This document shows, piece by piece, positions 44,563-58,880 of a stretch of DNA of 64,000 bases. This DNA is from an uncultured Bacilli bacterium (GTDB taxonomy: Bacteria > Bacillota_I > Bacilli_A > RF39 > UBA660), in NCBI GenBank assembly GCA_947626275.1, contig CANQRL010000001.1:1-64000 (forward strand), read 5' to 3'. A model generated the notes under the pieces. The model had not been told where the DNA came from. It ran no database searches and saw nothing but the letters and a program-made list of their open reading frames with translations. The translations under genes and the position numbers were made by a program. The first letter of the stretch is position 1; the number at the start of each line of letters is the position of its first letter.

Positions 44563-44589
44563 TCAAAAAAATAGAACCGAAGTTCTATT
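44563..44589 (-). terminator. Intrinsic terminator of the phosphodiester glycosidase gene
   Basis: On the minus strand an 8-bp perfect stem AATAGAAC/GTTCTATT with a TTCG loop covers the stop codon and is followed by seven Ts. Confidence 0.85.
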
Positions 44590-45685
44590 TTACCATCCAA
44601 CCATTAGGAATTTTTCTTTCTCCAACGTAACCATAGCCACGTGGATTATTGATAAGTTTATTATTGATGACAAGAGTAGAAGATCCTCCACCATCTAGAT
44701 TAGCGGCATTATAAGCTTTATATTTTTCTAGTAGTGTAATCATATCTTTGATGGAAATTCCATCACTTCCATTAGCTCCTCTTCCATCGATTACAAGGAA
44801 TAGGACAATGCCATCTTTTCGTTGAGCGATAGCGGTTCGATTGGCAACTCCCCAACCACCATTTCCTTTTACTTTAGCAGATTTTCCGTTGACAATAAGG
44901 AACGGTCCAAAGGTCATCGCATTCCACATGCCATTTTTAATAGCCGTAGTCGCACTATCGGATGTAAGCATTAAAACGCCATCTTTTGTAAATCCAATCA
45001 ATCCACCGCCATGTCTGTTTCTTCCACCGACAGATGCCACTTTTCCATTTTGGATAACGGTACCAGTAGGAATTTCTCTTCCTGTTGAGTAGGAGAAACC
45101 ACTAGCGTTGATAGCTACTTTTGCATTGTTGTATTTGGCAATATTGACAAGTGTCTGACCGCCATATCGTGCATTTACTAGGGAGATTCTTTTCGCATCA
45201 TAGATAACGACTAAGAATCCTTTATAATCTTTTTCTTCAATTTCAACTACTTTATAAAGGTCATTTCCTTCGTCTCGTTTTAAAATCTGTTCCTCATAAA
45301 TGGATTCATAGGAATCTTTTTCCGTATTTTCAAAAGTAATTTCATCGACATTCGTATTGTCATTTGTTTCAATAACGATATTATCTTTCAAAGCTCGTTC
45401 AATATCTCTCTCGCTGTAGAGAACGTTAGCGAAGTATTGATGGTGTCCGGATGCTAAAGCGGTTGTGATAAACCAGTTTTTAAACTCTTTACTAGGTCCA
45501 TATACGACGAAAAGAAAAATAATTACTAAAAGATCAAAGAACACACAGATATAAGTAAAAGGGGATATTTTTCGTTTTTTCTTCTTAGGAAGTTCTTTTT
45601 TTTCTAATTTGTCTTTTGTTTTTTCTGTTTCTTGCTTTGTTTCTTTTTTCTTATCTTTCTTTTTATCTTCTTTTTTCTTTTCCAT
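44585..45685 (-). CDS. Phosphodiester glycosidase (NAGPA) family surface protein
   Basis: A 366-aa protein with a long Lys/Glu-rich cytoplasmic start (about 45 residues), one membrane segment (about 47-64) and an extracellular NAGPA-like domain (about 165-365). Family marks are AINASGFSY, FGPFLIVNGK, RTAIAQRKDGIVLFLVIDGR and AANLDGGGSST. NAGPA-fold proteins cleave phosphodiester-linked sugars, for example on exopolysaccharide or teichoic-type polymers. The ATG overlaps the stop of the upstream minus-strand gene (TAATG), so the two are translated together. Placed beside genes for phosphate polymers, it might act on a phosphodiester surface polymer; this is inference. Confidence 0.88.
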   Translation of the reverse strand: MEKKKEDKKKDKKKETKQETEKTKDKLEKKELPKKKKRKISPFTYICVFFDLLVIIFLFVVYGPSKEFKNWFITTALASGHHQYFANVLYSERDIERALKDNIVIETNDNTNVDEITFENTEKDSYESIYEEQILKRDEGNDLYKVVEIEEKDYKGFLVVIYDAKRISLVNARYGGQTLVNIAKYNNAKVAINASGFSYSTGREIPTGTVIQNGKVASVGGRNRHGGGLIGFTKDGVLMLTSDSATTAIKNGMWNAMTFGPFLIVNGKSAKVKGNGGWGVANRTAIAQRKDGIVLFLVIDGRGANGSDGISIKDMITLLEKYKAYNAANLDGGGSSTLVINNKLINNPRGYGYVGERKIPNGWMVK

Positions 45686-47046
45686 TATTCCAAACCTCCT
45701 AGGACATAAGGATTTAAATAGTCACCCGTTCCACTTGCAATTTTAATATTTCCTTTTAAGTGGAAAGCAGGACGGATTGCGAGTTCTTCCGTAACCATAT
45801 TTTCATATAGAACATGATTATCATTTACGGAATAAATACTCATCTCATTGGTTTTACTAGTCGTAAATAGGAAGGTATTCGCTACTTCAAAAGCAAAAGG
45901 ATCAGCGATGGAAAGAAGTCCAATTTTAAAGTGTACTTTGCTTTCTAAAGCAGAACGGTAGTTATTATCCGCTAAGGAATACGTTCCAGCATAGAAATTG
46001 CCATCGACGATATAATTTTTATCTTTTAAAGAATTGTAATAGGTATTGTTAAGGTAGTAGAGCATCTCTTCTCGTGATAGAGAAAATTCATTATCATAAA
46101 GAGAGAATCTCATAAGGAGACATTCTTCCCCTTGTTTAATACAATCTTCACTTACTACTTTTACTTTATCGTTTTCTTTAGAGACCACTTTCCATAGCGT
46201 ATCATTATATAATAGATAACTACCAGGATAAACCTCTTGAAGGGTATTAATTTCTCTTGTATTTAATTGGAAAGGATCATCAGCGGTTCCAATTCCACTG
46301 ACAATTTGGGTATTCCCATCAATGGTAATGGTTGGACGAATTCCATATTTACTCGTGTAGTCATCATAGCTGACAAGTCCTTCAGAAGAGACATACCAAG
46401 CTCTAGAATCATCATGACTATTCGTCGTCCAGTAGTTGGTTCCATTATTGAGATAGCTTTCATTGGCGTTTGCCTCTAAATAGTCGTAGATACTAAGAAG
46501 TCCGATTTTATAATCACTATTGGATTCAAAACATCCTGCTGATTCAATATCTAAGAAAGAGTCAAAGCATTGTTTCGTCGAACGAAGTTCCCCGTCTTCT
46601 GCTTCTAACGTATTTTCAAAAATGCCGGTATTCTTTTCTTCTTCTAAATTTAACCAAGATAGAATATAGTTTTGTAAAGACCCTCCATATGGGAGAGAAG
46701 TAACGGTATCTTCGGTTACGAGTGTAATCGTTTTATCCGCATTGATGCGAACGATACGCCATAGATATCCCTTATACTTTACATAATTGTTGTCAACATC
46801 CCCAACAAACCGATAGATTCCATTCGTTTCGACAAATGTTTTCCGCAATTCATACGTATCATTCTCTTCGATGACGCGGGTCGCTAGATCAGTAGGAGCG
46901 ATATAAGGCTTTTCACTTTCCATCTTATAATAGATGAGTCGACCTAGAAAGTAAAAGCCAGTACCAAATACAAATAGAATACTGAATAAATTAAAGATCA
47001 CTTGTTTTTTAATCCTTATTTTTTTCTTCTTTTTTTTCTCTTCCAT
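45685..47046 (-). CDS. Exported protein with two DUF6273-like domains
   Basis: A 453-aa type II membrane protein: Lys-rich start, membrane segment (about 17-38), then two related extracellular halves. Each half opens with a 'YLWRIVRIN' or 'TLWKVVSKE' strand, has Cys pairs and an NDNxxYxxxS-like middle, and ends with 'RPTITI' or 'RPAFHL'. This resembles the DUF6273 domain common in surface proteins of gut Bacillota. Function unknown. It is the first gene of a minus-strand pair with the phosphodiester glycosidase and is divergently transcribed from the CotH gene. Confidence 0.75.
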   Translation of the reverse strand: MEEKKKKKKIRIKKQVIFNLFSILFVFGTGFYFLGRLIYYKMESEKPYIAPTDLATRVIEENDTYELRKTFVETNGIYRFVGDVDNNYVKYKGYLWRIVRINADKTITLVTEDTVTSLPYGGSLQNYILSWLNLEEEKNTGIFENTLEAEDGELRSTKQCFDSFLDIESAGCFESNSDYKIGLLSIYDYLEANANESYLNNGTNYWTTNSHDDSRAWYVSSEGLVSYDDYTSKYGIRPTITIDGNTQIVSGIGTADDPFQLNTREINTLQEVYPGSYLLYNDTLWKVVSKENDKVKVVSEDCIKQGEECLLMRFSLYDNEFSLSREEMLYYLNNTYYNSLKDKNYIVDGNFYAGTYSLADNNYRSALESKVHFKIGLLSIADPFAFEVANTFLFTTSKTNEMSIYSVNDNHVLYENMVTEELAIRPAFHLKGNIKIASGTGDYLNPYVLGGLE

Positions 47047-47167: not shown

Positions 47168-50029
47168 ATGGGAAGATTCGACCAGAAAAAACTAAAAAAC
47201 AACTTTACTAGTCTTTTAATAATGGGCCTTGCCATTGTCGTTTTGGTAGCGGTAGAATCTTTGATTTCTCCGAAAGAAGAGAAAATAGAAGGTTTAGGAA
47301 ATGGTGAGGTTCAATATAATCAATTAGTGATTAATGAGATGATGACTTCCAATAAAGGTTCTTATGCGGATAGCGAAGGAAACTGTTATGACTGGATTGA
47401 ACTATATAATGGTACGAATCAAGATATCGATTTATCGGGATATGGTTTGAGTGATGAGGTATCTGGAAACACCAAATGGATCTTTCCGGCTGTGACGATT
47501 AAGAGTAAGAGTTATTTAGTCATTTATCTATCTGGACAGACAAAAGAAGGATTGTATGCGAATTTCGCTTTAAATAAAGCAGGAAGCGAAACGATTACCT
47601 TAAAAAGAAAATCAGGAAAAGTAGTGGATACGGTAAAGACCGTTTCTTTGGATAAAAATACGGTGATGGCACGAAGCAATGATGGTAGTTGGATAAAAAC
47701 AGATGAGATTACCCCTGGATATGCGAATAATGAAGAGGGAAGAAAAGCTTATCTAGATAGTAGGGTAGCAACCGACTCCTTAGTGATATCAGAATTTTTA
47801 CCAAGCAATGAAGGAAATGTTTCTTTTGATGGACATCTCTACAGTTATTTAGAAGTGATGAATACCGGAGAGAAAGAAGTATCATTAAGAGATTACTTTG
47901 TTTCTAATGATTCTAATCGCCCATTTTTATATCGGTTACCGGATGTTACCTTAAAACCAAATGAGGTTTATCTCGTCTATACTTCTGGCTTAGGAAAAGA
48001 TAATCACGCCGATTTTACGTTAAAGAAAAAAACAGGAACAGTCATTTTAGCAAAGAAAGATAAGATTGTCGATAGCGTTGATTATCAGGATTTAACGAAT
48101 GGTTTTGCCTACATTAAAACCTCAAAAGGATTCCAAGAAGCCATTGATATTACCCCAGGATATCCGAATACTCCAGAAGGAATGGCGAAATTCTCATCTG
48201 AAAAAAGAAAGAATCCAACAGATTTAATCATTAGTGAAGTGATGAGTTCTAATCATGAGTATCTTGCTCAAAATGGCGGAGAGTACTACGATTGGATTGA
48301 ACTATATAACAATACGGATCATGCGATTACCTTGAGTGACTACTCACTTACTACCAATGATAGTAATCCTTCTATGTATCAGTTACCAAATGTTACTTTA
48401 AAGAGTAAGGAATATTATGTCGTTATGGCATCTGGAAATACGTCCTATAGTAATTCCAAATATCAACACACCAATTTCAAGATTTCTCCAGTTGAAAGTA
48501 TTTATCTATATAAAGGAAATGCCATGGTAGATAGCTTATTCCTTGCAAATATTCCAAATGGATATAGCTTTGGAAGGGGCGAACAGGATGGCTTCTACTA
48601 CTTTAAAAAGCCAACTCCTGTTAGTAAGAATGAGAAGAGTACGATTCAAGAAATTGCTTATGAGCCCATATTTCAAGAGGCACCAGGAATTTATAATGAT
48701 GTAAACGAGTTAGCGGTTACGCTAGAAGGTTCAGGGACTATATATTATACTTTAGATGGTTCAACACCAACGAAGAATTCTAAGGTATATGATAGTCCTA
48801 TTCTTTTAAAAAAAACAACCGTAATCAAAGCCGTCTCTTATGAGAATAAAAAAAAAGAGAGTTCGGTAGTAACGGGAAGTTATATTATTAATGAAAAGCA
48901 TACTCTTCCGGTATTATCGGTCAGTTTGCCCGCAACTTCTTTTCAATATCTTAACCTTCATCCGAGTGATATGGATTTAGTAATGCCAGCTCATGCGGAA
49001 CTCTACGAAGAAGGGAAATCCTTTTCCATCGATTGTGGGTTAAAGCTCTTCGGTGGACAGACTAGATACATCAGTAAGAAAAGTTATGCTTTAAAGTTTT
49101 CTAAGGAATTTGGACCCTCTACTTTAGAGTATAAAGTATTTGATAATCGAGATGCTGTTTCCTATGACACATTAGTAGTTCGAAGTGGTTCCCAAGATAG
49201 TGTTGGAACGATGATTCGAGATGAATTAGCGACTTCTATTATGGATGATTATGGAACGGTAGATGTTCAGGCATATAAAGCAACCATTTTATACGTAAAC
49301 GGAGAGTATTGGGGCGTCTATTTCTTACGGGAAAAAGTAAATGAAGAGTTTATTTCTCATCACTATGATGTTAAGGAAGAGGGAACCAATATTGTCCGAA
49401 TTGATAATAACGTAACGGCCGGTACTGCTTCTGATTATCGCTCTCTTGTCAACTATGTAAAAAGTCATAATTTATCAGTTGCAAGCAATTATGAATATGT
49501 CGCATCGAAACTAGATATCGATAATTTTATTGATTATTGGGTAGGAGAACTCTTTACTACCAATAATGATATCGTCAATACACGATTTTTTAACCATCCT
49601 GATGTAAATGGTGGTAAAATAAAGATGATTTTCTATGACTTCGATTATGCTTTCTATTTCTATAATAAAAATTATATGCAATGGATGACAGCAGCTGAAG
49701 GAATGGGAGAACATTTCTACGATAATACCCTTTTACGAGGACTACTACAGAATAGTACTTTTAAGAAAAGGTTCTTAGAGAGATTATCTTGGAATATGAA
49801 GAACGTTTGGACAGAAGAAAACGTTCTCGGAAGATATCAAGAATTAGTTGATCTATTAAAACCAGAGATGGAACGAAACCAAAAGAGGTGGGGAATGACT
49901 TACCAAGAATGGTTAGATAATCTAGCCGAATTAAAGACGTATTTGCAAAAGCGAAGAACGTATTTGATTAACCATACGAAGAGTTATTTCCATTTAAGTA
50001 GCGAGGAAGTGAACAAATATTTTGGATAA
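47168..50029 (+). CDS. Surface CotH-kinase protein with lamin-tail domains (copy 1)
   Basis: A 953-aa type II membrane protein. After a short basic start and membrane segment (about 14-32) come three lamin-tail-like (LTD) domains at about 50-190, 200-340 and 350-490; each opens with '(V/L)(I)(I/S)NE(M/F/V)' and a 'YDWIELYN'-type strand. A chitobiase-like beta domain follows (about 505-580, YYTLDGSTPTKNSKVY). The C-terminal CotH kinase domain (about 590-940) keeps LREKVNEEFI, the catalytic-loop-like NNDIVNTRFF and the metal-binding FYDFDYAF. CotH kinases phosphorylate spore-coat proteins in Bacillus; here the domain should be outside the cell. It overlaps the VTC gene by 8 nt. Confidence 0.88.
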   Translation: MGRFDQKKLKNNFTSLLIMGLAIVVLVAVESLISPKEEKIEGLGNGEVQYNQLVINEMMTSNKGSYADSEGNCYDWIELYNGTNQDIDLSGYGLSDEVSGNTKWIFPAVTIKSKSYLVIYLSGQTKEGLYANFALNKAGSETITLKRKSGKVVDTVKTVSLDKNTVMARSNDGSWIKTDEITPGYANNEEGRKAYLDSRVATDSLVISEFLPSNEGNVSFDGHLYSYLEVMNTGEKEVSLRDYFVSNDSNRPFLYRLPDVTLKPNEVYLVYTSGLGKDNHADFTLKKKTGTVILAKKDKIVDSVDYQDLTNGFAYIKTSKGFQEAIDITPGYPNTPEGMAKFSSEKRKNPTDLIISEVMSSNHEYLAQNGGEYYDWIELYNNTDHAITLSDYSLTTNDSNPSMYQLPNVTLKSKEYYVVMASGNTSYSNSKYQHTNFKISPVESIYLYKGNAMVDSLFLANIPNGYSFGRGEQDGFYYFKKPTPVSKNEKSTIQEIAYEPIFQEAPGIYNDVNELAVTLEGSGTIYYTLDGSTPTKNSKVYDSPILLKKTTVIKAVSYENKKKESSVVTGSYIINEKHTLPVLSVSLPATSFQYLNLHPSDMDLVMPAHAELYEEGKSFSIDCGLKLFGGQTRYISKKSYALKFSKEFGPSTLEYKVFDNRDAVSYDTLVVRSGSQDSVGTMIRDELATSIMDDYGTVDVQAYKATILYVNGEYWGVYFLREKVNEEFISHHYDVKEEGTNIVRIDNNVTAGTASDYRSLVNYVKSHNLSVASNYEYVASKLDIDNFIDYWVGELFTTNNDIVNTRFFNHPDVNGGKIKMIFYDFDYAFYFYNKNYMQWMTAAEGMGEHFYDNTLLRGLLQNSTFKKRFLERLSWNMKNVWTEENVLGRYQELVDLLKPEMERNQKRWGMTYQEWLDNLAELKTYLQKRRTYLINHTKSYFHLSSEEVNKYFG

Positions 50030-50717
50030 GAAACAATATAGACATGAATTAAAATTTATCTTAAGTGAATCAGAAGCAGAAATTTTGAAATATCGACTAT
50101 CCTTGCTCATGGATGTAGATACCAATTCAATCAATGAAGACAATACTTACTTCATTCGGAGTCTTTATTTCGATGATGTTTATGATACTGCTTACTATGA
50201 GAAAGTAGACGGGGTGGAGACGAGAGAAAAATATCGTATCCGTCTTTACAATCTAGATGATTCTTTTATTCGCTTGGAGCGAAAGGAAAAAAATCGGGAT
50301 TTGACTTATAAAAAACAAGCGATTATCACGAAGGAACAGTGCTTAAAATTTATGAATGGAGACTTTGATGATATCGATTTAGAAGAGGATGGATTGGTAC
50401 GAGAATTTGCTTTGAAACAGAAATTAAAGGAAATTCGCCCTAGTGTCATCGTCGATTATAAAAGACTGGCCTATACCTATCCGGTAGAAGATACGAGAGT
50501 GACTTTTGACGAAAAGATTCGTTCCGGAAAGTATGCGTCCAATCTATTTGATCCCGAACTACTTACCTTTGATGTATTAGAACCAAAAGAAGTGGTTTTG
50601 GAAGTAAAATTTAACAATGCGATTCCTAGTCACATTGCGAGTGTGATTATGAGTATACCGATGATTCGTCAGGCGGTTTCTAAATTTGCTTTATGTAAAG
50701 AGAAGAAGGAGGTTTAA
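50022..50717 (+). CDS. VTC-domain protein, predicted polyphosphate polymerase
   Basis: A 231-aa soluble VTC-domain protein (tunnel-shaped triphosphate-tunnel fold), as in the yeast Vtc4 polyphosphate polymerase. Family elements are YRHELKF at the start, TYFIRSLYFDD, REKYRIRLYN, IRLERKEKNRDL with its basic residues, PSVIVDYKRLAY and LEVKFNN, which place Arg, Lys and Glu inside the tunnel. It has no membrane segment, so it would act in the cytoplasm. The TTG start lies inside the end of the CotH gene; the GAGGAAGTG upstream is farther than usual. It is followed closely by the DUF4956 gene. Confidence 0.87.
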   Translation: MDKKQYRHELKFILSESEAEILKYRLSLLMDVDTNSINEDNTYFIRSLYFDDVYDTAYYEKVDGVETREKYRIRLYNLDDSFIRLERKEKNRDLTYKKQAIITKEQCLKFMNGDFDDIDLEEDGLVREFALKQKLKEIRPSVIVDYKRLAYTYPVEDTRVTFDEKIRSGKYASNLFDPELLTFDVLEPKEVVLEVKFNNAIPSHIASVIMSIPMIRQAVSKFALCKEKKEV

Positions 50718-50718
50718 C

Positions 50719-51372
50719 ATGAGCTTTTTAGATATGATTAAAAAGAGTGTCGTAGAACAATTTACGAGCTCGCTTTCTACGGGAGATATCTTTTTCTCCC
50801 TCTTAGTTGCTTTTGCAGCAGCAGTGATTATTGCCTTTATTTATAAGAGAACCTATACGGGAGTTTCCTATACGAAATCTTTCGTTTTATCCCTTGTATT
50901 GCTAGCAATGGTTACATCATTAGTCATTCGTACCATCAATTCCAACTTAGCGTTATCACTAGGTATGGTTGGTGCTCTTTCTATCGTACGTTTCCGTACA
51001 GCTGTGAAAGATCCTGTGGATACCATTTTTATGTTTTGGGCGATTACAGCAGGAATTATGTCGGGAGCAGGTCTTTATCTAGTAACCATTATTGCTACCT
51101 TGATATTGGGAATCTTCTATACGGTTTCTTATATGACGGCTTTTCATCCAACGCAGAAATATCTTCTCGTTATCAAAGCTAGTAAAGGATATGCTGAAGA
51201 AATTCATAGTTTGATGGATAAGAAGAAAAAATGCATTTTGAAAACCGAGTCTTATAAAGATAAGACAGTGGAACTTACTTATGAGTTAGCAACCAAAGAC
51301 ACCTCACGAGAGCTAGACAAATTAAAAAATCAAAAAGAAGTAGAAAGCATTCACCTAGTAAGTATCGACTAA
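50719..51372 (+). CDS. DUF4956 membrane protein
   Basis: A 217-aa protein with about four membrane segments (about 22-42, 55-75, 85-100, 115-140) and a cytoplasmic C-terminal domain of about 75 residues. The DUF4956 core is clear: LSLGMVGALSIVRFRTAVKD, then PVDTIFMFWAITAGI. The family often accompanies VTC-domain genes. By analogy to the membrane subunit of eukaryotic VTC complexes it may form the passage for the polymer, but this is inference. AGGAGG lies just before ATG 50719, almost touching the VTC stop. Confidence 0.87.
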   Translation: MSFLDMIKKSVVEQFTSSLSTGDIFFSLLVAFAAAVIIAFIYKRTYTGVSYTKSFVLSLVLLAMVTSLVIRTINSNLALSLGMVGALSIVRFRTAVKDPVDTIFMFWAITAGIMSGAGLYLVTIIATLILGIFYTVSYMTAFHPTQKYLLVIKASKGYAEEIHSLMDKKKKCILKTESYKDKTVELTYELATKDTSRELDKLKNQKEVESIHLVSID

Positions 51373-51397
51373 CAGAAGATTTTCTTCTGTTTTTTTC
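51371..51397 (+). terminator. Intrinsic terminator after the DUF4956 gene
   Basis: The stem AACAGAAG/CTTCTGTT with loop ATTTT begins at the stop codon and is followed by seven Ts. It ends the CotH-VTC-DUF4956 transcript. Confidence 0.85.
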
Positions 51398-51404
51398 TTT
51401 CTCA

Positions 51405-51433
51405 TAGACGTAATAAAGCGGATATGATATAAT
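51405..51433 (+). promoter_or_regulatory. Promoter of the second CotH gene
   Basis: A TAGACG (51405-51410) and an exact TATAAT (51428-51433) are 17 nt apart. The second CotH gene is therefore transcribed separately from the first three genes. Confidence 0.65.
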
Positions 51434-51454
51434 GAATGGGTAGGAGAGAGTACC

Positions 51455-54343
51455 ATGAAGTTTTTTGATGAAGAAAAGCTAGAACAGAATAAAAAAATCG
51501 TTCTAACGCTTGTACTGGTGTTAGTCTTTTTTGTCGTTTTAAACCGTGTTACCACTTCTCCTGTCAATAAAAATTTATCACCTATTATCGTCAATGAAAT
51601 TATGGCTTCTAATGATAGTGCTTATGCGGATTTAGAAGGAAACTGTTACGATTGGGTAGAATTATACAATAGTAGTGAGGAAGATATTTCTTTAAAGGGG
51701 TATCGTCTATCGGATGGCAATAGTAAAAATGAAGTCATTTTAGGAGATGTTATTCTTCCTAGTCATGGATATGTTCTTTTCTATTTAACGGGAAAAGAAA
51801 GTACCAATCCTTACTATTTATCCTTTGCATTAAATAAGTCAAAAGAAGAACCTCTTATTTTAAAAAATGAAAAGAATGAGGTTATTTCCATGGTGAAGGT
51901 TCCTAATATCAAAAAGAATACCACTTATGCCTATCACCATAAAAAGTATTCGGAAACGGAAACCATCACACCAGGATATGCGAATACTATGTCGGGTAGA
52001 CTAGAGTATTTAAAAGATCGAAGAGAAAGTGATCAAACCGTATTCATTACAGAATTCTTAGTAGATAACCAAGGAATTTATGTACACGATCAATCTTTAT
52101 ATTCTTATATTGAAATTACGAATTTTGGGGAAGAGGCAGTTTCTTTAGCGGACTATTTTCTTTCTAATGATAAAGAAAGACCGTTTCTCTATCGTTTACC
52201 AGATGTGGTGTTAGAGCCAAATACCTCTTACCTGATTTATCCAACAAAAAAAGAGAAGATAGGACATGCCAATTTTACGTTAAATTCTAAAGAAGGAGAA
52301 ATTCTTCTTTCCAAAAATGGAAAAATTGTGGAGAGTATCTCTTATCAAACAACCAAAAAGGGATATGCCTTTGTTCGGGAAGCAAACAGCTTTATCGAAA
52401 CGACCAATCTTTCCCCAGGGTATCCAAATACGTTATCTGGTCGAAAAGAAGCAGCTAAAAAAGATACCAATCCAACAGATTTAATCATTAATGAAGTGAT
52501 GAGTTCTAATGATACTTTGGTAAAAGAAAAAAATGGAAAGGCTTACGATTGGATTGAAATAAAGAATGCTTCTAAAAACACAATTTCTCTAGAGGGATAT
52601 AGTCTTACTACGAATCCTAAGAGTCCTAACCGTTTTTCGCTACCAAAGCGTAGTTTAAAAAGTGGGGAAACTATTCTCATTATGGCTTCTGGTGGGGCAT
52701 CCATCAAAAATGCGAAATATATCCATGCCAATTTTAAATTACAGGAAGAAGAAGGCGTTTTTCTCTACAAGGGAAAAGAGCTAATCGATGCTCTATATAT
52801 CCCTCCATTAAAAGTAGGATATAGCTTTGGAAGAGGAAATTCTTATGGACATTATTATTTTTCAAGTCCTACTCCCAATAAGAAGAACAATTCAGGGGTG
52901 TTAGAAATTACCGAGGAACCAACGTTTTCCATTGCGCCTGGCGTTTATAATAACGTGAAAGAGGTATCTGTAGAACTACAAGGAGAAGGGGATATCTACT
53001 ATACGTTAGATGGTAGTGTACCAACAAAAAACTCTAAAAAATATACGGGAAAGATTTCCTTAACGAAGACAACGGTCATTCGGGCGATTGCTTATAGTAA
53101 GGAAAAAGCTTCTAGTGAAGTGGTAACGGGTAGTTATATTGTGAACGAAAATCATACTCTCCCAGTTTTATCTCTTAGCCTATCCAATACGCAGTTTCAA
53201 AATTTAAATGCGAGCATTCATTCTACGAAACTAGAATATCCAGCCCATATCGAATTCTATGAAAAGAATGGATCGTTCTCTATTAATTGTGGATTAAAGC
53301 TATTTGGTGGACAAAGCCGTGAACTCGATAAGAAGAGCTATGCTTTAAAGTTTTCTTCCGAGTATGGCGCAAGTAGTTTATCCTATCCTGTTTTTGAAAA
53401 TCGAGAAATTTTAAACTACAATACAATCGTTTTAAGAAGTGGTTCACAGGATATGGAAGGATCGATGTTTCGGGATGAACTTTCGGATGCGATTGTCGAT
53501 ATGGCAGGAACAGTCGATACTCAAGCCTATAAAGCAGCCGTTTTATATATAAATGGAACCTATTGGGGCGTTTACTATTTAAGAGAAAAAATTGATGATG
53601 TCTTTATTGGACAACACTATAATGTCTCTCCAACAGGAACCAATATCGTTAAGATCGAAGGAGAAGTGGATGAAGGAACAAGAGCCTCTTTTAACAAATT
53701 GATGCAGTATGTAAGAACCCATGACCTATCTACCGATAGTGCTTATCAAGAAGTAAGTAAAATGTTAGATATCGATAATTATATTGAGTTTATCATTGGT
53801 CAATTTTTTGCTAATAATATCGATATTCGAAACACGCGTTATTTCAATAATTCTAAGGTCGCTAATGGAAAAATTCGCATGATTTATTACGACTTAGATT
53901 ATGGATTACGGTATGGCCCAGTTAATTATCTTACTTGGGTAGTCAATCCAGAAGGAGCGGGATATTTTAACGTAGATAACTCGTTAATACGGGGTTTGAT
54001 GCAAAATGCCCAGTTTAAAAAGCATTTCTTAGAAGTCTTTTTCTACGATATGAAATATATCTATACGGATGAGAAAGTAATGGCCAAATATAATGAAATC
54101 TATAATGCGATTGCTCCTGAGATGAAGAGAAATCAAGAACGTTGGAATTATAGTTATGATACATTCCTCACTCATGCGAAGAGTATTAAATCCTTTTTAA
54201 AGGGACGAAGAAATCGAATGATTGCCAACGTTCAAAGCTATTTTAATCTCTCTGATAAAGAGGTAAAAGCCTACTTAGATGATAGTCATTATCTTCAAGA
54301 TTATATGAAAAGACAAAGTCAAATTGTAAAAAGTAGCATGTAA
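51455..54343 (+). CDS. Surface CotH-kinase protein with lamin-tail domains (copy 2)
   Basis: A 962-aa paralogue of the first CotH protein with the same layout: membrane segment at about 14-31, three LTD domains, a chitobiase-like domain (YYTLDGSVPTKNSKKY) and a CotH kinase domain. Kinase elements are NNIDIRNTRYF and YYDLDYGLRYG. A short segment near the third LTD repeat is almost identical in DNA to copy 1 although most of the gene has diverged. It has an additional tail of about 20 residues. AGGAGAGAG precedes the ATG. Confidence 0.88.
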   Translation: MKFFDEEKLEQNKKIVLTLVLVLVFFVVLNRVTTSPVNKNLSPIIVNEIMASNDSAYADLEGNCYDWVELYNSSEEDISLKGYRLSDGNSKNEVILGDVILPSHGYVLFYLTGKESTNPYYLSFALNKSKEEPLILKNEKNEVISMVKVPNIKKNTTYAYHHKKYSETETITPGYANTMSGRLEYLKDRRESDQTVFITEFLVDNQGIYVHDQSLYSYIEITNFGEEAVSLADYFLSNDKERPFLYRLPDVVLEPNTSYLIYPTKKEKIGHANFTLNSKEGEILLSKNGKIVESISYQTTKKGYAFVREANSFIETTNLSPGYPNTLSGRKEAAKKDTNPTDLIINEVMSSNDTLVKEKNGKAYDWIEIKNASKNTISLEGYSLTTNPKSPNRFSLPKRSLKSGETILIMASGGASIKNAKYIHANFKLQEEEGVFLYKGKELIDALYIPPLKVGYSFGRGNSYGHYYFSSPTPNKKNNSGVLEITEEPTFSIAPGVYNNVKEVSVELQGEGDIYYTLDGSVPTKNSKKYTGKISLTKTTVIRAIAYSKEKASSEVVTGSYIVNENHTLPVLSLSLSNTQFQNLNASIHSTKLEYPAHIEFYEKNGSFSINCGLKLFGGQSRELDKKSYALKFSSEYGASSLSYPVFENREILNYNTIVLRSGSQDMEGSMFRDELSDAIVDMAGTVDTQAYKAAVLYINGTYWGVYYLREKIDDVFIGQHYNVSPTGTNIVKIEGEVDEGTRASFNKLMQYVRTHDLSTDSAYQEVSKMLDIDNYIEFIIGQFFANNIDIRNTRYFNNSKVANGKIRMIYYDLDYGLRYGPVNYLTWVVNPEGAGYFNVDNSLIRGLMQNAQFKKHFLEVFFYDMKYIYTDEKVMAKYNEIYNAIAPEMKRNQERWNYSYDTFLTHAKSIKSFLKGRRNRMIANVQSYFNLSDKEVKAYLDDSHYLQDYMKRQSQIVKSSM

Positions 54344-54424: not shown

Positions 54425-55693
54425 ATGAAAAAGAGATTAGGACTTATTTTTGTAGCAATTTTTGCATTTTTAATGACAATCGGTAATGCATTTGCTTTAC
54501 CAAGTACGGTAACTTTTACAGAAGGAAATTTATCAGGGGTTGATGTAACAGGATTGGGTGGATACTATGTTCCTACTTATAAGACAGTTGTAAGTGGTTC
54601 TAGTGTATTACCAGCTTATTTTATCGATAAAGATAAAGTAACGGCTCCAACGAATAATACATTCACATTAGAACAAGAATTAAAAGATGCTGGATATATT
54701 TATATCTTATCCAATGGAGCATCTGGAACTTGGAATGGTTCTTTATTAGGATCAGGTTTTGATACGAATGAGAAATACTATATTACCCAATTAGCGTTAT
54801 CTATCTATCGTTATGGAACGGTTTCTTATACAGCAAACAACGCTAGAACACAAGTACTTATCAATGCAGCTATCAAACTTGCCAACACTGCTAAGGAATA
54901 CAAAGTACCTGTTAGCCAAGTTGGTTTAGCAGATGGTAGTCAAAAGATGTATTTATCTGGTAACTACTATATAACTGATTCTTATACGGTAACAGGAAAT
55001 GGATTTGCTACTTACAACGTAAAAATTGAAAATGCTACTTCTGATGTTCAAATCGTCGCTTCTACTGGTGAAGTTTATGACTCTACTACTTCTTTAGTAG
55101 CAGGAACAAAATTCTATGTTAGAATTCCTGCTAGTAAAGCAACGGAAAATAGAGACATGAAAGTAGTTGTATCAGCTACTTCTAAAACTTATAAAGTATA
55201 TGAGTATGTATTAAGAAATTATAAAGAAGTGATCGTCGGAGCCAATTCTGTAGAACAATCTTCTATGGAACAAACCTTATCATTAAGAGTTTCTGATGAA
55301 CCAGTTGAGGATGATTGTGTAGGAACAGTTATCGTAACAAAAAAAGATGCAAAAACCGATAAACCATTAGCAGGAGCGAAAATCGTTCTAAAGGATTCTA
55401 AAGGAAATATCGTCGATAGTTGGGTATCTACGAAAGAAGCTCACTATACACGTAATTTAAAAGCTGGAAAGTATACTTTAGTAGAAACACAATCTCCAGA
55501 TGGTTATGAATTAAGTGACGAAATCGTTAAAATCGAAATTCCAGAAAACACGAGAGCAAGAGTAGAAGTTGTTATCTATAACTCTAGTATTCCAGTAACT
55601 GCTAATATCAATATGATTATGTTATTTGCTGGATTTATCGTTACAGCTGCTAGTGCTGGTTTCGGACTTTACAAATTAAGTAAACAAAACTAA
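54425..55693 (+). CDS. Sortase-anchored adhesin with thioester-like and Cna-B domains
   Basis: A 422-aa wall protein: a signal peptide (about 1-24, ending NAFA), a thioester-domain-like region (about 45-190) and a Cna-B/SpaA domain (about 299-385, KPLAGAKIVLKD and SPDGYE). The anchor follows: an LPxTG-like IPVTA at about 390, a hydrophobic helix and a short tail with K and Q. In thioester domains a Cys in a YC(I/L)D motif links to the Gln of TQxA. Here TQLA is kept (Q122) but the matching position is Phe (AYFID, F66), so the thioester cannot form. The adjacent sortase is the likely anchoring enzyme. GGGGGAAATAGGTT precedes the ATG. Confidence 0.82.
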   Translation: MKKRLGLIFVAIFAFLMTIGNAFALPSTVTFTEGNLSGVDVTGLGGYYVPTYKTVVSGSSVLPAYFIDKDKVTAPTNNTFTLEQELKDAGYIYILSNGASGTWNGSLLGSGFDTNEKYYITQLALSIYRYGTVSYTANNARTQVLINAAIKLANTAKEYKVPVSQVGLADGSQKMYLSGNYYITDSYTVTGNGFATYNVKIENATSDVQIVASTGEVYDSTTSLVAGTKFYVRIPASKATENRDMKVVVSATSKTYKVYEYVLRNYKEVIVGANSVEQSSMEQTLSLRVSDEPVEDDCVGTVIVTKKDAKTDKPLAGAKIVLKDSKGNIVDSWVSTKEAHYTRNLKAGKYTLVETQSPDGYELSDEIVKIEIPENTRARVEVVIYNSSIPVTANINMIMLFAGFIVTAASAGFGLYKLSKQN

Positions 55694-55719
55694 AAAAGGA
55701 TGGAAACATTCTTTTTTTT
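55692..55719 (+). terminator. Intrinsic terminator after the adhesin gene
   Basis: The stem AAAAAGGATG/CATTCTTTTT (one G-U pair) with a GAAA loop overlaps the stop codon and is followed by Ts. Some read-through into the sortase gene is possible, since the gap to it is under 100 nt. Confidence 0.75.
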
Positions 55720-55789
55720 AGAATTTGCTAAATTCTTAAAAATGTGGTATCATAGCTACCAATCAATGAGGAAAAAGGGGGAAAAGTAT

Positions 55790-57136
55790 ATGAAAACGGA
55801 TAACTTTCTATATAACGAGCGAGTTTATACCATTCATACTACTTTAAAAGTGAAAGAAGAGGAATATGTGATTGCCTCTTTGGATGGGAGATATTCTTGC
55901 TTTAAACACAAAGTCATCAATGAAAGGGATACATACACACCATTCTTTGGACTTATGCTTGTTTTACCACAATATCAAAATATCGGTTATCAAAACTTTG
56001 GAAGATGTATCCATATCTTTTTAAAAAAAGCCAATCTTGGGGTTCCTATCGAGAAACTAGAAGAAGCTTTTTATCACATTTGGGAAGTCAGTGAAAATGA
56101 CTTTCATGAATCTGCTAGAGAAGAGCTTTCTCTTGACTATTTTGATGCCTTTTATCAAGCTCAATTAACCATTTATCAACGAAAGAATATGACGGAATTA
56201 TTAGAACTCGATCCTAAGGTAGAAAAGGAAGAGAAAAAAGAAACTCGTCGTCCTACATCTTCTAAGGTTTGGTTTCCATTCAAACGTTTTGCCTACATGT
56301 GTTTGGTAGCTATTTCTGTCATTGGCTTTATGGAATGCTTTGATACTTACGCTAGTTGGAAAGAAGAAGGAAAAGAAGTCAATGCTTTAACCAATACCTT
56401 AGTAGATGATGCTGCTATCGAAGAAATAGCCGTAGAAACTCCAGTTATCGAAGAACCAACTGTAGAAAGCAACACCAATACCAATAGTAACAGTAGTAGT
56501 AATTCTTCTCAAAAAACGACCAAGAAAAAAGGAAGCGATTACTATAGTTATACCAAGACTTCGATGATAAATGTAGACTTCACGAAATTAAAAAAGAAAA
56601 ACAGTGATACGGTTGGATGGATTTATGTTCCAAATACAAATATCAACTATCCATTCGTTCAAACCAAAGACAATAGTTATTACCTTGATCACGCTTTTGA
56701 TCGAACTAAAAACGGTGCTGGATGGATTTTTGCTGACTACCGTTCTGATTTAAAGAACTTTAAGAATAATACTGTTATTTACGGTCATGGACGTGTAGAT
56801 AATGTCATGTTTGGAACACTTGAAAAAACGTTAAAAAAGAGTTGGTATACGAATAAAGAGAATCAAATTATTAAGATGTCTACTCCATATGAGAATACTT
56901 TATGGCAAGTATTTTCTATCTATACGATTAAAGCAGAATCTTATTACTTAACTCACAACTTTGAAAATGATGAATCTTATCAAAAATTCTTAGATACGAT
57001 TACGAAACGTAGTATTTATGACTTTGGGGTAGATATGACAACCAATGACAAAGTATTAACTCTTTCTACTTGCTTAAACTATGATGGCGATAGAATTGTT
57101 GTACATGCTAAATTAATCCAAAGACAAGCTAGATAA
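55790..57136 (+). CDS. Class B-like sortase with N-terminal cytoplasmic domain
   Basis: A 448-aa sortase. The C-terminal half is class B: TVGWIYVPNTNINYPFVQ, the His of YGHGRVDNVMF (H333), the Cys of TLSTC (C428) and the Arg of DGDRIVVHAKL (R435). One membrane segment (about 166-186) precedes an Asn/Ser-rich linker. The first 160 residues are soluble and unlike usual sortases, which begin with the membrane anchor. I chose ATG 55790 behind GGGGGAAAAG over an in-frame ATG 30 codons upstream. It should anchor the upstream IPVTA protein. Confidence 0.9.
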   Translation: MKTDNFLYNERVYTIHTTLKVKEEEYVIASLDGRYSCFKHKVINERDTYTPFFGLMLVLPQYQNIGYQNFGRCIHIFLKKANLGVPIEKLEEAFYHIWEVSENDFHESAREELSLDYFDAFYQAQLTIYQRKNMTELLELDPKVEKEEKKETRRPTSSKVWFPFKRFAYMCLVAISVIGFMECFDTYASWKEEGKEVNALTNTLVDDAAIEEIAVETPVIEEPTVESNTNTNSNSSSNSSQKTTKKKGSDYYSYTKTSMINVDFTKLKKKNSDTVGWIYVPNTNINYPFVQTKDNSYYLDHAFDRTKNGAGWIFADYRSDLKNFKNNTVIYGHGRVDNVMFGTLEKTLKKSWYTNKENQIIKMSTPYENTLWQVFSIYTIKAESYYLTHNFENDESYQKFLDTITKRSIYDFGVDMTTNDKVLTLSTCLNYDGDRIVVHAKLIQRQAR

Positions 57137-57823: not shown

Positions 57824-57859
57824 AAAAAAATAATCTATCATTTCTTAGATTATTTTTTT
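57824..57859. terminator. Strong intrinsic terminator
   Basis: A 14-bp perfect stem (seven As plus TAATCTA, and its complement) with an 8-nt loop lies just after the stop codon of the small membrane protein. Being A- and T-flanked, it could act on both strands. Confidence 0.85.
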
Positions 57860-57914
57860 GTATACTTCTTTTCTTTTTTTTCATATTAATATTGTAGCCT
57901 ATAAGGAGTATTTT

Positions 57915-58880
57915 ATGATCAAAAAAATAAATTTCCTTTTTCTTCTGCTTCTTATTGCTTTTCCTTGTCAAACATTTGCTTATTCCGATTATATTTTAGC
58001 AGGTGGAGACAATATTGGAATCCGTCTACAAATGAAAGAATTGCTCGTGATTGGAACGTATGAAATCGACGACGAAAGTCCAGCTTTAATTGCCGGACTT
58101 AGAGTAGGAGATAAGATTCTTTCTATCGACAAACAAAAAGTTTCTTCTATTCAAGAGATGAATGACTATCTTTCAAAGAGTAGTAGCGATACTATTCAAA
58201 TAGGCTACATGAGAGATGGCTCCATCAAAGAAACTACCTTAACGTTAAAAGAAGGACGAACGGGATTATATTTAAAAGATAATGTAGCAGGAATTGGAAC
58301 TCTTACGTTTATCGATCCAAATACCAAAAAATTTGGTGCACTAGGACATGAGATAGTGGATTCGACAACGAAAGAGATTGTGGATTCTCTTTCTGGAACG
58401 ATCTTTTCTTCTTCTATTCATAGTATTACAAAGAGTAGAGATGGGATTCCGGGTGAGAAAAATGCGACATTAAACCCAGCAGATGTTCTAGGAATCATCG
58501 ATGAAAATACGGACAAAGGAATCTTTGGTACGTATGAAGATGAAATTTTAAAAGATAATCTATATAAGGTAGCGAAAATAGAAGATGTTAAACTAGGAGA
58601 TGCGAAAATTAGAACCGTAATTGATGGGTCCGAAGTCCAAGAATATAGTATTCGTATTACGAAAGTTCATGAGACAGAAAATAAAACCAAAAACATTGTT
58701 TTCCAAATTACGGATTCGAAATTGCTTGCGGAAACAGGTGGTATTGTACAAGGAATGAGTGGTTCCCCAATTGTTCAAGGAGAATATATTGTGGGGGCAG
58801 TAACACATGTCGTAGTAGATGATCCCGAGAGGGGATACGGTATACTAATTACCAATATGTTAGAGGAAGCCGAAAACTAA
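57915..58880 (+). CDS. spoIVB: SpoIVB-like S55 peptidase (sigma-K checkpoint)
   Basis: A 321-aa secreted serine protease that, in Bacillus, cuts SpoIVFA to start sigma-K activation. It has a signal peptide-like start (about 1-22), a PDZ domain (about 45-110, SPALIAGLRVGDKIL) and the S55 domain with FGALGHEI (catalytic His) and VQGMSGSPIV (active-site Ser at about 282-284), then HVVVDDPERGYGI. It is about 100 residues shorter than the Bacillus protein. ATG 57915 follows AAGGAG. spo0A, often next to it, is not here. Confidence 0.92.
   Translation: MIKKINFLFLLLLIAFPCQTFAYSDYILAGGDNIGIRLQMKELLVIGTYEIDDESPALIAGLRVGDKILSIDKQKVSSIQEMNDYLSKSSSDTIQIGYMRDGSIKETTLTLKEGRTGLYLKDNVAGIGTLTFIDPNTKKFGALGHEIVDSTTKEIVDSLSGTIFSSSIHSITKSRDGIPGEKNATLNPADVLGIIDENTDKGIFGTYEDEILKDNLYKVAKIEDVKLGDAKIRTVIDGSEVQEYSIRITKVHETENKTKNIVFQITDSKLLAETGGIVQGMSGSPIVQGEYIVGAVTHVVVDDPERGYGILITNMLEEAEN

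Follow-up and report, generated by a model that had tools for sequence, protein, structure and literature searches.

A conserved set of CotH, VTC and DUF4956 genes in an uncultured Bacilli bacterium: a candidate polyphosphate synthase at the membrane with exported partners

Genes of the type CotH-PPP-DUF4956(-DUF4832) have been reported as accessory genes of Gram-positive pel operons (PMC7112168), and deletion mutants have been made in one such Pel-linked cassette, SIR_1592-SIR_1594 of Streptococcus intermedius (PMC12345266). There, deletion of the VTC gene gave no aggregation or Pel phenotype, whereas deletion of the DUF4956 or the CotH gene gave one, and these two deletions shifted the amount of Pel in opposite directions; the authors detected no such synteny elsewhere than at the Pel locus (PMC12345266). 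A first-pass annotation of the DNA studied here stated that neighbouring CotH, VTC and DUF4956 genes had no established function, which was nearly right, except that the cassette had been described in Pel loci and mutants of it exist. A search of the literature found no biochemical test of any bacterial VTC protein.

Two questions are touched by these genes: how secreted kinases are supplied with phosphate outside the cell, and whether polyphosphate is made and exported in bacteria beyond those that use PPK. A conserved set of three parts, two of which are inseparable in genomes, is a defined target for both. We find that genomes retain the three genes as a set, also where these are dispersed over the chromosome, and that their products probably act jointly at the cell surface; the product of the set would be polyphosphate.

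Organization of the locus

The window is the whole stretch of DNA that was analysed, 64,000 nucleotides from an uncultured Bacilli bacterium. The features of the locus are as follows.

44585..45685, minus strand: NAGPA phosphodiester glycosidase, transcribed away from the CotH operon (Pfam and neighbourhood comparison)
47168..50029, plus strand: CotH1, with an N-terminal membrane anchor, three lamin-tail (LTD) domains, Fn3_assoc/CHB_HEX_C_1 and a C-terminal CotH kinase domain
50022..50717, plus strand: triphosphate-tunnel protein of the VTC family with a TTG start, predicted to be a polyphosphate polymerase
50719..51372, plus strand: DUF4956 membrane protein (Pfam and membrane-helix prediction)
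51371..51391, plus strand: terminator-like hairpin with a T tract, closing the three-gene unit (consensus match only)
51405..51433, plus strand: promoter-like site before CotH2, 10/12, with TG preceding the second hexamer (consensus match; the count for the region equals chance)
51455..54343, plus strand: CotH2, a paralogue of CotH1 with the same domain order (Pfam and comparison with CotH1)
54425..55693, plus strand: SpaA-type surface protein, directly downstream of CotH2 (Pfam)
55700..57136, plus strand: class B sortase (TIGR03064)

The CotH1 and VTC genes overlap by 8 nt and 1 nt separates VTC from DUF4956, while the interval between DUF4956 and CotH2 is 82 nt long and contains the terminator-like hairpin and the promoter-like site, both of them consensus matches. 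Because of these two elements, we read CotH1-VTC-DUF4956 as a three-gene operon and CotH2 as a tandem paralogue that would be transcribed separately. The four adjacent genes announced by the first-pass annotation are present with their domains, but they do not make up one tight operon. In two close relatives (L002 and L004), CotH2 is missing at the three-gene locus; in another relative (L003), the three genes and CotH2 are both present.

The divergent NAGPA gene stands beside CotH-VTC-DUF4956 in six loci (the window, L002-L004, L073 and L083), two of them from another family, and may be a functional neighbour acting on phosphodiester-linked surface glycans. Positions 45685-47046 encode a large protein that is anchored and weakly matches DUF6273; it adjoins NAGPA in close relatives too. 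On the other side, the SpaA-type protein and the sortase are kept together in L002-L004, the L004 counterpart having a thioester domain. Further downstream, at 57858-58880, lies a PDZ and SpoIVB-type S55 peptidase in a genome that gave no match to Spo0A, apparently a sporulation-signalling protease retained outside sporulation.

The VTC protein and its DUF4956 partner

The VTC protein of the window matches its Pfam family with E = 8e-35, and the VTC profile matches yeast Vtc4 at 3.6e-22. In a fold search with a model built on the relative L083, the Vtc4 structures 8i6v, 7ytj and 3g3r were the top matches, before the TTM hydrolases, so that by Pfam, profile and fold the triphosphate tunnel is closest to that of Vtc4. 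The tunnel Arg and Lys residues are kept, in accordance with the conserved motifs noticed earlier: invariant in 47 VTC relatives are R7, E9, K11, R72, R74, E86, K88, K90, K97, R148, R159, D163, E194, K196, S220 and K221. In the profile alignment, R72 and R74 correspond to Vtc4 R264 and R266, two of the three residues that were changed to inactivate the yeast enzyme (PMC9911596). Furthermore, K11 corresponds to Vtc4 K200, K88 to Vtc4 K281 and R148 to the YxR position, and E194, which lies beyond the aligned span, is by its motif the presumed equivalent of Vtc4 E426.

The invariant E9 stands at the position of Vtc4 T198 and, placed via the shared K200/K11, at that of Glu-4 in the acidic patch of the TTM phosphatase AtTTM3 (PMC4641920). 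Two further positions of the patch, R7 and, by motif position, K196, carry basic residues like those of polymerases. Given the departure from Vtc4 at E9, the assignment as a polymerase is likely but not certain, and the protein may carry out hydrolysis or another triphosphate reaction. As PPK1 gave no match in the window genome, VTC may be the source of polyphosphate in this bacterium.

The DUF4956 protein scores above the gathering value of PF16316 (40.7 vs 30.6 bits, E = 2.7e-10, Pfam). Its AlphaFold model (mean pLDDT 81, pTM 0.66) consists of about five hydrophobic, predicted membrane helices and then a C-terminal beta-alpha-beta domain. An RFR motif, in which R93 is invariant and R91 nearly so (53 sequences), lies close to where a predicted membrane helix ends, and these conserved arginines hint indirectly that the protein may pass or conduct polyphosphate. 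The fold search with DUF4956 gave no channel or transporter, its membrane part matching no solved channel; the only hits were ACT and related ferredoxin-like domains, which the C-terminal domain matches weakly. When VTC and DUF4956 were modelled as one fused chain, in which the natural stop codons of L083 and other relatives were read through, the fold had good local confidence and a pTM of 0.58, too low to show how the two dock, and the structure of the MgtC C-terminal domain, 2lqj, was among the weak fold matches. Similarity of DUF4956 to MgtC/SapB is weak and under the curated cut-off (21.5 vs 214 bits, NF007431); a similarity to MgtC was also remarked for the S. intermedius protein (PMC12345266).

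These observations bear on an alternative in which VTC hydrolyses triphosphate or works as some other tunnel enzyme, and DUF4956 acts as a sensor or regulator of the MgtC kind, the pair controlling the phosphate or ATP economy from inside the cell with no polymer exported. It would account for the invariant tunnel E9, for the MgtC/SapB similarity and ACT-like domain of DUF4956, weak as these matches are, and for the opposite effects of DUF4956 and CotH deletions on the amount of Pel (PMC12345266). We nevertheless consider it unlikely, since R7 and, by motif position, K196 are basic at acidic-patch positions as in Vtc4, Vtc4 structures outrank TTM hydrolases as fold matches, and the constant link to exported CotH proteins or lipoproteins would be left unexplained.

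A phylum survey of 245 genomes found VTC in 45, DUF4956 in 43 and CotH in 50. All 43 genomes with DUF4956 fall within the 45 with VTC (Fisher P = 6e-46), and 50/52 VTC genes have a DUF4956 neighbour on their own strand no more than 300 bp away. Of the remaining two VTC genes, one sits at a contig end and the other is a fragment. In control searches, Corynebacterium glutamicum gave matches to all three families. The VTC and DUF4956 trees share an identical deep split (SH-aLRT 99 and 100) and their distances correlate strongly (r = 0.89; permutations reached at most 0.23). Both trees come from rapid searches and contain several long branches, and their fine detail is unreliable. This genomic association gives good support to synthesis by VTC with DUF4956 as its obligate membrane partner, and makes DUF4956, a family without a function, likely to be the membrane half of a polymerase complex. 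It was proposed earlier that VTC makes polyphosphate and DUF4956 carries it through the membrane; the pairing stands by association, while the product and its translocation are steps that we infer.

CotH kinases, exported partners and the possible role of polyphosphate

Each CotH protein carries three LTD domains, Fn3_assoc/CHB_HEX_C_1 and CotH (Pfam; 2.7e-44 and 2.3e-39 for the CotH domains), and the two are 50% identical. A PDB search with the single CotH1 sequence gave no match; the solved CotH structure 5jd9 was found by the CotH profile, at 3.4e-45. Both proteins keep the catalytic Asp pair on alignment (D801/D824 in CotH1, D790/D813 in CotH2), 23 residues apart as in 5jd9; the Bacillus subtilis enzyme is inactivated by D228Q (PMC7821199). 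Both are putative kinases that would transfer phosphate to protein. The sole hydrophobic segment of each is N-terminal and follows basic residues, and by the positive-inside rule this single predicted anchor would place the CotH domains outside the cell, in agreement with the extracellular location first proposed.

CotH is named for spore coat assembly and a SpoIVB-type peptidase is encoded at 57858-58880, so that one could suppose a locus for spore-coat phosphorylation with VTC and DUF4956 as mere chance neighbours. This is highly improbable and already largely refuted: the window genome gave no Spo0A match, the CotH proteins are membrane-anchored and bear lamin-tail domains, the co-occurrence is non-random, and the cassette is found in non-sporulating Streptococcus (PMC7112168).

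Linkage of CotH to the pair is clade-specific. CotH is found within 8 kb of 25/52 VTC genes, 11/45 VTC genomes lack any CotH, and 16/50 CotH genomes lack VTC. The deep split shared by the two trees separates clade I from clade II. In clade I (30 loci, the window included), a CotH kinase is nearby in 27; the value becomes 28/30 when L005, whose LTD-only protein has no CotH domain, is counted as CotH by its tree label. Of the 24 loci in clade II, 12 have a Cthe_2159 beta-helix lipoprotein, which is the most frequent partner there, and no partner was seen in 10. With about half of the surveyed pairs having no CotH nearby and 13 of the examined loci carrying Cthe_2159 in its place, CotH as a universal partner was rejected. 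Where it is present, CotH lies upstream of the VTC-DUF4956 pair in some loci and downstream in others, and because of this variation in gene order the link exceeds inherited synteny.

Among 247 Desulfovibrionaceae genomes, 28 have VTC and 27 have CotH, and every genome with CotH is also one with VTC (P = 3e-35, a value that is overstated, since related genomes are not independent). This sample-wide survey covered VTC and CotH; DUF4956 was checked in four Desulfovibrio genomes first retrieved by their VTC (L009-L012). In these, VTC, DUF4956 and CotH are all present on different contigs and are not mutual neighbours within the fetched flanks; an initial classification of the four as having VTC without DUF4956 was rejected when DUF4956 and CotH were found elsewhere in the genome. 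The first-pass annotation had named random co-occurrence of the families as a refuting result; both surveys show non-random co-occurrence, and its other refuting results, loss of the VTC tunnel residues or the CotH catalytic Asp residues and a cytoplasmic location of the CotH domains, were not observed either. Of all the observations made here, the retention of the three genes without linkage speaks most strongly for joint action of their products.

In L105 and L103, also Desulfovibrionaceae, VTC is immediately preceded by a stretch for a periplasmic beta-helix-like protein. In G322 of the same family, judging from coordinates and sequence, CotH and a beta-helix-like stretch apparently form one open frame, merging the two partner types.

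We give about an even chance to the reading that VTC-DUF4956 is an obligate membrane machine for polyphosphate synthesis with swappable exported partners, CotH being the partner in clade I. It builds on the gene content, the intact residues, the near-obligate pairing, the clade-specific CotH linkage and the predicted anchors. VTC would draw on ATP to polymerise phosphate inside its tunnel, on the inner side of the membrane, and DUF4956 would take the anionic chain via its conserved arginines and pass it into or across the membrane; coupled synthesis and translocation has a precedent (PMC9911596), and the machine would resemble the yeast VTC complex with an unrelated membrane part. In clade I, exported, membrane-anchored CotH kinases presented by lamin-tail domains would phosphorylate surface proteins or glycans; in clade II, the Cthe_2159 lipoprotein would be the frequent partner. 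In either case, the exported partner would use or organise the polyphosphate. Points that weigh against this reading are the invariant E9 of the tunnel, the pTM of the fused model, the DUF4956 membrane part that matched no solved channel, and the S. intermedius deletions, in which loss of DUF4956 or CotH had an effect on aggregation or Pel and loss of VTC had none (PMC12345266).

What the polymer would do outside is a separate matter. The first-pass annotation suggested that exported polyphosphate is the phosphate donor of extracellular CotH, answering the lack of ATP outside the cell. Kinases that use polyphosphate exist, namely PPK2 and polyphosphate glucokinase. The CotH linkage of clade I spans families and holds also at unlinked positions, the catalytic residues of CotH are intact, and even for B. 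subtilis the literature describes as open where CotH obtains its ATP (PMC7821199). However, the B. subtilis enzyme works with ATP in vitro (PMC7821199), and the donor role is disfavoured as a general rule by the clade II pairs, whose core works without CotH, by the CotH genomes without VTC together with the VTC genomes without CotH, and by the S. intermedius deletions, of which that of CotH had a phenotype and that of VTC had none (PMC12345266). The donor role is possible, is the least supported step of the scheme, and seems to us quite unlikely. The wider proposal, that a VTC and DUF4956 synthase-translocase feeds extracytoplasmic phosphorylation with polyphosphate as donor or substrate polymer of clade I CotH, we regard as just as doubtful.

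The swapping of exported partners, LTD-bearing CotH against beta-helix carbohydrate-binding lipoproteins, and their apparent fusion in one Desulfovibrionaceae frame, as read from coordinates and sequence, would fit a further reading, with polyphosphate as a structural polyanion of the surface or matrix. It would bind calcium or bridge cationic polymers such as Pel, and CotH and Cthe_2159 would bind, anchor or modify the matrix, with polyphosphate not acting as donor. The presence of the cassette in Pel operons and the altered aggregation of mutants (PMC7112168, PMC12345266), as well as the surface protein and sortase adjoining the window cassette, are consistent with this role. On the other hand, the PelG search found no Pel genes in the window genome, the literature search found no carrier with demonstrated surface polyphosphate, and the S. 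intermedius VTC deletion had no aggregation phenotype (PMC12345266). The exchange of partners and the occurrence beside Pel genes agree with a matrix role no less than with the donor role; we consider the matrix role possible, though less likely than not.

Comparison with described systems

The pel cassettes share the three families and their neighbourhood with the window, and the VTC proteins of L065, L072 and L008, the only loci with Pel-like genes beside the cassette, are, like that of the window, on the CotH-linked side of the tree; most surveyed clade I loci show no such genes. In contrast to the pel cassettes, which are linked to pelDEADAFG genes, the window genome (92.6% complete) gave no match to PelG, and the identity of the window cassette as a Pel accessory was rejected on this ground. 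Furthermore, no DUF4832 gene follows, CotH is duplicated and has three lamin-tail domains, NAGPA is divergent, and SpaA and sortase B genes lie downstream.

The NELoc-2 locus of Clostridium perfringens (CP4_0458-0468; PMC2879425) likewise has VTC and CotH together, and its membrane protein at the position of DUF4956 is annotated as 'tubulin/FtsZ, GTPase'. It differs in having two VTC-membrane protein pairs, HEAT and chitin-synthase-like genes, and a sigma factor gene, which the window locus does not have beside it. Seven to nine clade I loci have a sigma-70 region 2 protein and/or an RsgI-like anti-sigma just upstream of VTC; two examples from the neighbourhood comparison are given here.

L066:5538-6266: upstream sigma-70 region 2/RsgI-like gene
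L067:5227-6360: upstream sigma-70 region 2/RsgI-like gene

Such genes, like the sigma factor of NELoc-2, suggest that a sigma system sensing the cell exterior may control the cassette.

The yeast VTC complex (Vtc1/Vtc3/Vtc4) and the window set both have a tunnel polymerase domain with equivalent residues and a membrane part (PMC9911596), but the window set has no SPX domain, has DUF4956 in place of Vtc1-type helices, is made of separate polypeptides and belongs to a bacterial plasma membrane. The kinase domain is homologous to that of the Bacillus spore-coat kinase CotH (5jd9), with both catalytic Asp positions, whereas the window proteins are membrane-anchored, carry lamin-tail domains and come from a genome with no Spo0A match. 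DUF4956 and MgtC/SapB are alike in their weak similarity and ACT-like C-terminal domain, and differ in the score under the curated cut-off, the RFR motif and the strict VTC linkage. The cassette is thus of a kind already published as a Pel accessory; what is new here is its Pel-free context.
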